Notes under the pieces: generated by a model
What the model was told of the DNA's origin: nothing
What the model saw: only the letters and a program-made list of their open reading frames with translations
Database searches by the model: none
Part shown: piece after piece, positions 17,468-19,132 of the stretch
Position numbering within the stretch: position 1 is the stretch's first letter
Layout of the letters: every line of letters starts with the position of its first letter
Made by a program: the position numbers and the translations under genes
Assembly (NCBI GenBank): GCA_001303025.1
Contig: LJNK01000017.1
Span: 62,001-126,000, forward strand
DNA from: Deltaproteobacteria bacterium SG8_13
GTDB lineage: Bacteria > Desulfobacterota > Desulfobacteria > Desulfobacterales > SG8-13
Direction: 5' to 3'
Length of the DNA: 64,000 nt

Positions 17468-19132
17468 ATGAAAACAGGGATCGATGTAATCAAGGCGATG
17501 CTGCCGGTGGCAATCGGTGTGCTGCTGCTGACCCCGGCGCCGGCGCCGGCGCAAACCGAGAAGGTGGATACCGGTCTGGCCCCGGGACGCGTCATGGCAC
17601 AGCAGGCCGTAAAGGAAAAGCAGCTCTGGATCACCGCCGACCACAGCAAGCACGAGGTGCTCCAGCAGCAGTTCACTTCCGGCCCGCAGGTCACCAAAGC
17701 CTGTCTTTCCTGCCACAGCGAAGCCGCTTCCCAGTTTCACCAGACGATTCACTGGACCTGGCTCGATCCGGCGACTGTGGAAAGCAAGGTCCTGGGGAAA
17801 GGCGGACTGTCGATCAACAACTTCTGAGTGATCGCCAAAAGCAACGAGGCTCGTTGCACATCCTGTCATGCCGGCTACGGTTGGAAGGGCAATGACTTTG
17901 ACTTCACCGACCAGACCGGGGTCGACTGTCTGGTCTGCCATGAACAGACCGGGACGTACAAAAAGTTTCCGGCCGGTGCCGGAAATCCCGCTCCCAGGGA
18001 AATGGTTTTCCCCGGTAACGGGAAAACCTACCATCCGCCGGACTGGAACAAAGTGGCCCAAAGCGTGGGGCGCCCGACCCGCAACAACTGCGGGACCTGC
18101 CACTTCTTCGGCGGCGGCGGTGACGGCGTCAAACACGGAGACCTGGATTCTTCGCTGATGAAGCCGAACAAGATGCTCGATGTTCACATGGGCACAGACG
18201 GCCAGAACTTCGACTGCGTTCGCTGTCACTCCACCACCCTGCACAACATCGCCGGTCGTGTGTACACCACCCCGGCTTACGAGCACCGCAAGAGCCTGAT
18301 CGAAGACGACCTGGCATCCAAGATTACCTGCGAATCCTGCCACAGCAGCTCCCCCCACAAAGAAGATGCCAAGGCCAACGACCACACCGACAAGGTCGCC
18401 TGCCAGAGCTGTCACGTTCCCCGGTTTGCACGGGTGAACCCGACGAAGATGTGGTGGGACTGGTCGCAGGCCGGAAAGAAAAAAAACGGCAAGCCATACA
18501 AAGTCAAGGGGGAGCTGGAAAGGCCGGAATACGACACACTCAAGGGCGACATGAAGTGGGCAAAAGACGTGGTGCCGGAGTATTACTGGTACAACGGTTC
18601 CATTGAGCACCTTACCGTCAAGGATGTTATCGATCCGGGCAAAGATGTTGTCATTAACCGGCCGGTGGGCGACAAAGACGACATCCACTCCCGGATATTT
18701 CCGTTCAAGGTCCACCGCGGCAAGCAGCCCTACGACAAGGTGAACAAAACCCTGGTGGTCCCCCATCTCTTCCCCAAAGGTCCTGCCGATGCGGATGCAT
18801 ACTGGAAAACCTTCGACTGGGGCAAAGCGATTGCTTTCGGGATGGACTACACCGGGTTGCCGTATTCCGGAGAATACGACTTTGTCGAAACCAGCTACGT
18901 TTTCCCGATCACGCACATGGTGGCGCCGAAAGACAACGTGGTCGCCTGCAAGGAGTGCCATGCCCACGAAGGAGGGCGGCTGGCCAAGCTGACCGGATTT
19001 TACATGCCCGGACGCGACAACTTTCGGGCACTCGACACCCTCGGCTGGATTGTGGTTATCGGGGCACTGCTGGGTGTCGTTCTGCACGGATTGGGCCGCG
19101 TATTTACCGCCAACGGCAGAAAGGAGCAATAA
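17468..19132 (+). CDS. OTR-family octaheme cytochrome c, candidate selenoprotein (in-frame TGA at 17825-17827 = Sec)
   Basis: ORFs 17468-17827 and 17828-19132 are contiguous in one frame; TGA replaces the Cys of NNFC seen in the tandem paralogue; eight CxxCH in the read-through product; SECIS-like hairpin at +14. Confidence 0.85.
17841..17857 (+). promoter_or_regulatory. Putative bacterial SECIS element
   Basis: GCAACGA-GGC-TCGTTGC, perfect 7-bp stem, 13 nt after the TGA, loop begins with G at +21. Confidence 0.75.

Follow-up and report, generated by a model that had tools for sequence, protein, structure and literature searches.

The octaheme tetrathionate reductase (OTR) of Shewanella oneidensis (structure 1SP3) has tetrathionate, nitrite and hydroxylamine as substrates, and heme II is its catalytic heme (PMC4484225). 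A distinct class of tetrathionate reductase is represented by the diheme cytochrome TsdA (tetrathionate reductase/thiosulfate dehydrogenase), in which an active-site Cys that is also a heme ligand attacks the central S–S bond of tetrathionate, binds thiosulfate covalently and bears a covalent thiosulfonate (PMC5146829). Selenocysteine (Sec) is listed for another multiheme c-type cytochrome, the ExtKL type (NF040886, 'cyt_C_like_Sec'), which belongs to a different family and has no match in the genome studied here. In this work we analysed a stretch of 64,000 nucleotides (the window) from the sulfate-reducer-type Deltaproteobacteria bacterium SG8_13 (contig LJNK01000017.1), which carries an OTR-family gene split by a single in-frame TGA; our comparison with relatives suggests, with high confidence, that it encodes an OTR-family selenoprotein reductase in which the catalytic-site Cys is replaced by Sec. 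An earlier note on this DNA knew of no described Sec-containing OTR; the family is in fact already listed in a review of May 2026 (PMC13188914, Table 1), as a TIGR04315 selenoprotein with one Sec (WP_331457571.1, 'GenBank annotated', motif not available). The word 'octaheme' is absent from a 2022 review of prokaryotic selenoproteins (PMC9312934), and we found no study of the Sec-OTR family in the open-access literature.

Results

The features that define the gene are the following.

17468–19132, + strand: candidate Sec-containing octaheme OTR-family cytochrome (P0001), 554 amino acids on read-through, TIGR04315, eight CxxCH motifs
17825–17827, + strand: in-frame TGA, predicted to encode Sec at residue 120, aligned with 1SP3 Cys64
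17841–17857, + strand: putative selenocysteine insertion sequence (SECIS)-type hairpin, E-type (GCAACGA 17841–17847, GGC 17848–17850, TCGTTGC 17851–17857)
17855–17869, + strand: CTSCH motif of heme II, overlapping the 3′ arm of the hairpin
18131–18133, + strand: Lys222, aligned with 1SP3 Lys153

The open reading frames (ORFs) 17468–17827 and 17828–19132 are a single frame of which the TGA is the sole break. The read-through product has an N-terminal signal-like segment, then the eight CxxCH motifs and, at its C terminus, a membrane helix; it matches TIGR04315 (tetrathionate reductase family octaheme cytochromes) with 623.6 bits, for a cut-off of 375, over model positions 1–440 of 440. Aligned with 1SP3 (405 bits over 444 residues), it shares family and heme layout with the Shewanella enzyme, and the TGA falls on Cys64 of ...NSINNFCVAISSNEPRCTSCH, ten residues N-terminal to the heme II CxxCH. 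The earlier note had described the split frame, the intact heme motifs and membrane helix, an intact cytochrome b partner, and a TGA placed exactly at a Cys of the tandem paralogue, and all of these hold; the aligned paralogue codon is TGT. It had also named Asn61 and Cys64 as active-site positions of the Shewanella enzyme, and the alignment does put the TGA at chain position 64 and an Asn at 61. In the structure described in 2004, Cys64, Asn61 and Lys153 reportedly form the active site, with Lys153 as the heme-ligating Lys; in the open-access literature searched, Cys64 is nowhere described as part of an active site. P0001 and its relatives conserve the Asn61 and Lys153 columns, and the latter is Lys in every aligned relative.

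The codon at the Cys64 column was read in two samples. The first was drawn from OTR-family genes in 201 genomes of the order and 401 of the phylum to which the window belongs; it comprised nearly every gene in which an internal TGA had been flagged, together with a selection of the others. The second came from scanning named genomes and brought in 80 further OTR loci. The column held TGA in 59 genes and TGC or TGT in 54 in the first sample, and TGA in 16 and TGC or TGT in 64 in the second, proportions that are not frequencies since the samples are partly TGA-selected and may overlap in organism. All 75 internal-TGA genes with an aligned OTR core thus have their TGA at this column, the other 118 have TGC or TGT, and no residue besides Cys or TGA occurs there among genes having the column, which is the alternation that the earlier note had proposed to look for. 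Two other internal-TGA matches (L111 and L112) were set aside; they are seven-heme proteins in which the aligned stretch does not include the column. The part of the gene 3′ of the TGA shows no sign of the decay that would be expected of a dead sequence, the ratio of nonsynonymous to synonymous substitution rates (dN/dS) being 0.085 for one and 0.11 for the other of the two nearest relatives that give a finite estimate, at synonymous sites near saturation. The presence of TGA at one column across families, together with this low downstream dN/dS, argues that the TGA is no lesion.

The hairpin starts 13 nt downstream of the TGA, and its 3′ arm extends into the codon that opens the heme II CxxCH. 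Perfect hairpins of 7 bp or more follow the TGA or Cys codon in 72 of the 75 TGA genes, compared with 2 of the 118 Cys genes; over the window as a whole they occur at 1.65% of positions. Two designs are found. In the E-type (35 genes, window gene included) all seven pairs of GCAACGA-GGC-TCGTTGC are kept, and the codons AGC AAC GAG GCT CGT TGC are nearly frozen, with many synonyms in Cys relatives. The W-type (40 genes), CTGGTGC-AGGT-GCACCAG, lies in another register a few bases further downstream; in three genes of one family a C–G pair has become U–A, both bases being altered. The apical loops, GGC or AGGT, are almost invariant across TGA genes. Compared with synonymous recodings that keep the codon usage of each gene, folding gave a mean z of –1.81 for 59 Sec genes versus –0.19 for 54 Cys genes. 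The 3′ arm of both types is built from heme II CxxCH codons, so that RNA and heme attachment constrain each other. The residue at +8 is usually Pro in Cys forms, whereas Sec forms have Ala or Cys there and in one case Ser; among the sampled genes no Sec form has Pro, and Cys is found in Sec forms only. The lack of Pro would be explained by the loss of the loop G (E-type) or of a stem arm (W-type) that a Pro codon would entail. Ala at +8 was considered as a marker of Sec genes and dropped, as wider sampling gave Cys forms with Ala. We also considered whether the +8 Cys might resolve a Se–S bond; because TGC pairs with GCA in the RNA stem, this Cys is explained without any protein function.

The genome, which is 91.5% complete, encodes tRNA-Sec (selC; 76.5 bits), selA (608), selB (328) and selD (371), the four genes whose presence the earlier note had wanted confirmed. 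The selD gene (L136, G000:C34:9626-10549) itself contains a TGA in frame, in agreement with a SelD that carries Sec. Co-occurrence of tRNA-Sec and Sec-OTR within the order was tried as a test and proved uninformative because 174 of the 201 genomes have a tRNA-Sec above the cut-off.

Placed on a tree of the family, the Cys/Sec label changes at least eight times, six of the changes being forced by well-supported branches; the tree is a quick build with the motif columns omitted and is unrooted for this purpose, so that the direction of each change, gain or loss, is not readable from it. One Sec gene (L035), 85% identical to L031, is surrounded by Cys orthologues that share its genus code. A Cys-type gene from a Desulfatitalea metagenome-assembled genome (MAG; L142, 4740–6389) has TGT followed by a complete E-type hairpin and groups with the Sec-containing set that includes the window gene; in this one MAG a recent Sec-to-Cys change that left a fossil SECIS is probable. 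Sec-OTR genes are found in the isolates Desulforhopalus vacuolatus DSM 9700, Pseudodesulfovibrio pelocollis SB368 and Thermodesulfatator autotrophicus S606. In the databases, 18 of the best 120 clusters are proteins of 434–438 amino acids that start just past the TGA. As far as genes can be read from sequence, Sec-OTR is widespread and routinely mis-annotated, many database entries being apparently truncated to 434-residue fragments.

A second Sec-OTR subfamily (L056–L070 and L113–L118) was also observed, many members of which have extra CxxCH motifs before the OTR core; there are up to 12 CxxCH in the aligned stretch, and one member (L066) has an N-terminal class III cytochrome domain.

The neighbouring genes are as follows.

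19136–19801, + strand: cytochrome b, presumed quinol-side partner of P0001, PF01292, intact
14612–16237, + strand: Cys-type OTR paralogue in tandem, with TGT where P0001 has the in-frame TGA and with TGA as its own stop
16241–16897, + strand: cytochrome b partner of the Cys-type paralogue, which it adjoins

As the paralogue terminates at TGA, this codon is also an ordinary stop in the locus, which speaks against general reassignment; no hairpin comparable to that of P0001 follows the paralogue's Cys codon (–4.8 kcal/mol), as had been noticed earlier. The nearest models of the cytochrome b at 19136–19801 are thiosulfate reductase cytochromes b, with scores below cut-off, and a relative of it is present in 16 of 16 Sec and 59 of 64 Cys OTR loci. 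A protein with three rhodanese domains (13388–14524) lies upstream of both OTR operons and has a relative in only 1 of the 80 other OTR loci. The upstream neighbours (rhodanese, small cytochrome) are not conserved beside Sec-OTR and therefore carry little weight on function.

Elsewhere in the window, a mechanical scan for TGA-split frames gave a MerB-like gene (57946–57248, minus strand; alkylmercury lyase PF03243, 72 bits) with two in-frame TGAs.

57664–57662, minus strand: in-frame TGA of the MerB-like gene (GN-U-VWD)
57478–57476, minus strand: in-frame TGA of the MerB-like gene (GYT-U)

Both TGAs are apparently at the two catalytic Cys positions of MerB. TGA at both columns is common to about 19 genes in the order, many of them with a GGU- or GGUC-loop hairpin after each TGA, and the MerB-like gene of the window scores 20.9 bits against SaoL, below the cut-off of 140. 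Because SaoL, with one Sec, is the sole MerB-like protein in selenoprotein reviews (PMC13188914, PMC9312934), these genes may form a double-Sec family unlisted so far.

Discussion

The comparison of TGA and Cys genes indicates that Sec is almost certainly inserted at UGA 17825–17827. The computational checks proposed in the earlier note turned out favourable. On this comparative basis, SelB and tRNA-Sec would decode the UGA via the SECIS hairpin 13 nt downstream, which overlies codons into the heme II motif. P0001 would be exported, loaded with eight c-hemes and anchored by its C-terminal helix beside cytochrome b, which would relay quinol electrons into the heme chain; this helix and the adjacent cytochrome b are additions relative to 1SP3, from which P0001 differs also in having Sec for Cys64. 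A catalytic role of Sec is likely. A selenolate beside heme II could attack the S–S bond of tetrathionate, polysulfide or an organic disulfide to give a Se–S adduct, which would then be reduced by electrons from the hemes, a mechanism that we propose because of the analogy with the TsdA Cys. A sulfur rather than a nitrogen substrate is slightly favoured. Somewhat less probable is a Sec enzyme with a nitrogen-oxide substrate, nitrite or hydroxylamine, in which Sec would tune the heme pocket and no Se–S adduct would form: the Shewanella enzyme reduces both compounds besides tetrathionate (PMC4484225) and the Asn61 and Lys153 columns are conserved, but a redox-active chalcogen would be better suited to S–S chemistry, and the three-rhodanese protein lies upstream, although this neighbour is not conserved.

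Several observations weigh against a selenoprotein reductase acting in this way. The selB gene is cut by a contig end (C22). TsdA and OTR are distinct enzyme classes, so that the TsdA mechanism is an analogy across them. The AlphaFold model (19 sequences; mean predicted local distance difference test score, pLDDT, 53), in which the C-terminal helix is also seen, is too poor for geometry. Finally, the 7-bp stem is exactly as the earlier note had described it and is conserved among the TGA genes, but taken alone the window hairpin is not unusual compared with shuffles (z –0.68). The significance of the hairpin comes from the comparison across TGA and Cys genes and not from its own fold energy.

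If the TGA were instead a genuine stop, a sequencing error or the lesion of a pseudogene, the product would be a truncated peptide with one heme and the 3′ part would be dead. Such a reading would agree with standard gene calling, which splits the gene into two ORFs, and with the database proteins that begin after the TGA. This is very improbable, and for the family it is refuted comparatively: TGA recurs in a single column in 75 genes, which come from many families and from across the phylum, purifying selection is strong 3′ of it, the hairpin codons are almost frozen and all seven remaining heme motifs are intact. Near-cognate read-through that places Cys, Trp or some other standard residue at the UGA is equally improbable, for although the residue is deduced from DNA, all non-TGA relatives having the column carry Cys, the SECIS-like hairpin is conserved and the genome has the full Sec machinery, TGA-bearing selD included.

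The Sec-OTR gene of the window is thus, on these comparisons, a putative member of a catalogued, seemingly unstudied selenoprotein family. It can be likened to WP_331457571.1 by the listing of the latter as a TIGR04315 selenoprotein with one Sec, an entry that is a GenBank annotation without motif, position, distribution or function. What is new, as predicted from the genes compared here, is the active-site position of Sec, the two SECIS designs in heme II codons, the spread of the family, the recurrent exchange of Cys and Sec, a probable fossil SECIS in one gene and the isolates. A broader proposal, which we regard as speculative and rather unlikely to hold in all its parts, is that Sec-OTR is common as a respiratory form across the phylum and has arisen and disappeared several times by single-codon Cys/Sec exchange under the joint SECIS and heme II constraint, that tandem Cys/Sec operons are a selenium-responsive pair, and that Sec gives an acceptor or a rate that the Cys enzyme lacks. 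The seemingly unstudied family thereby acquires a predicted position in the active site, a decoding signal and a wide natural range of Cys and Sec orthologues, isolates included, and with these the contribution of selenium to a multiheme respiratory reductase becomes directly testable.
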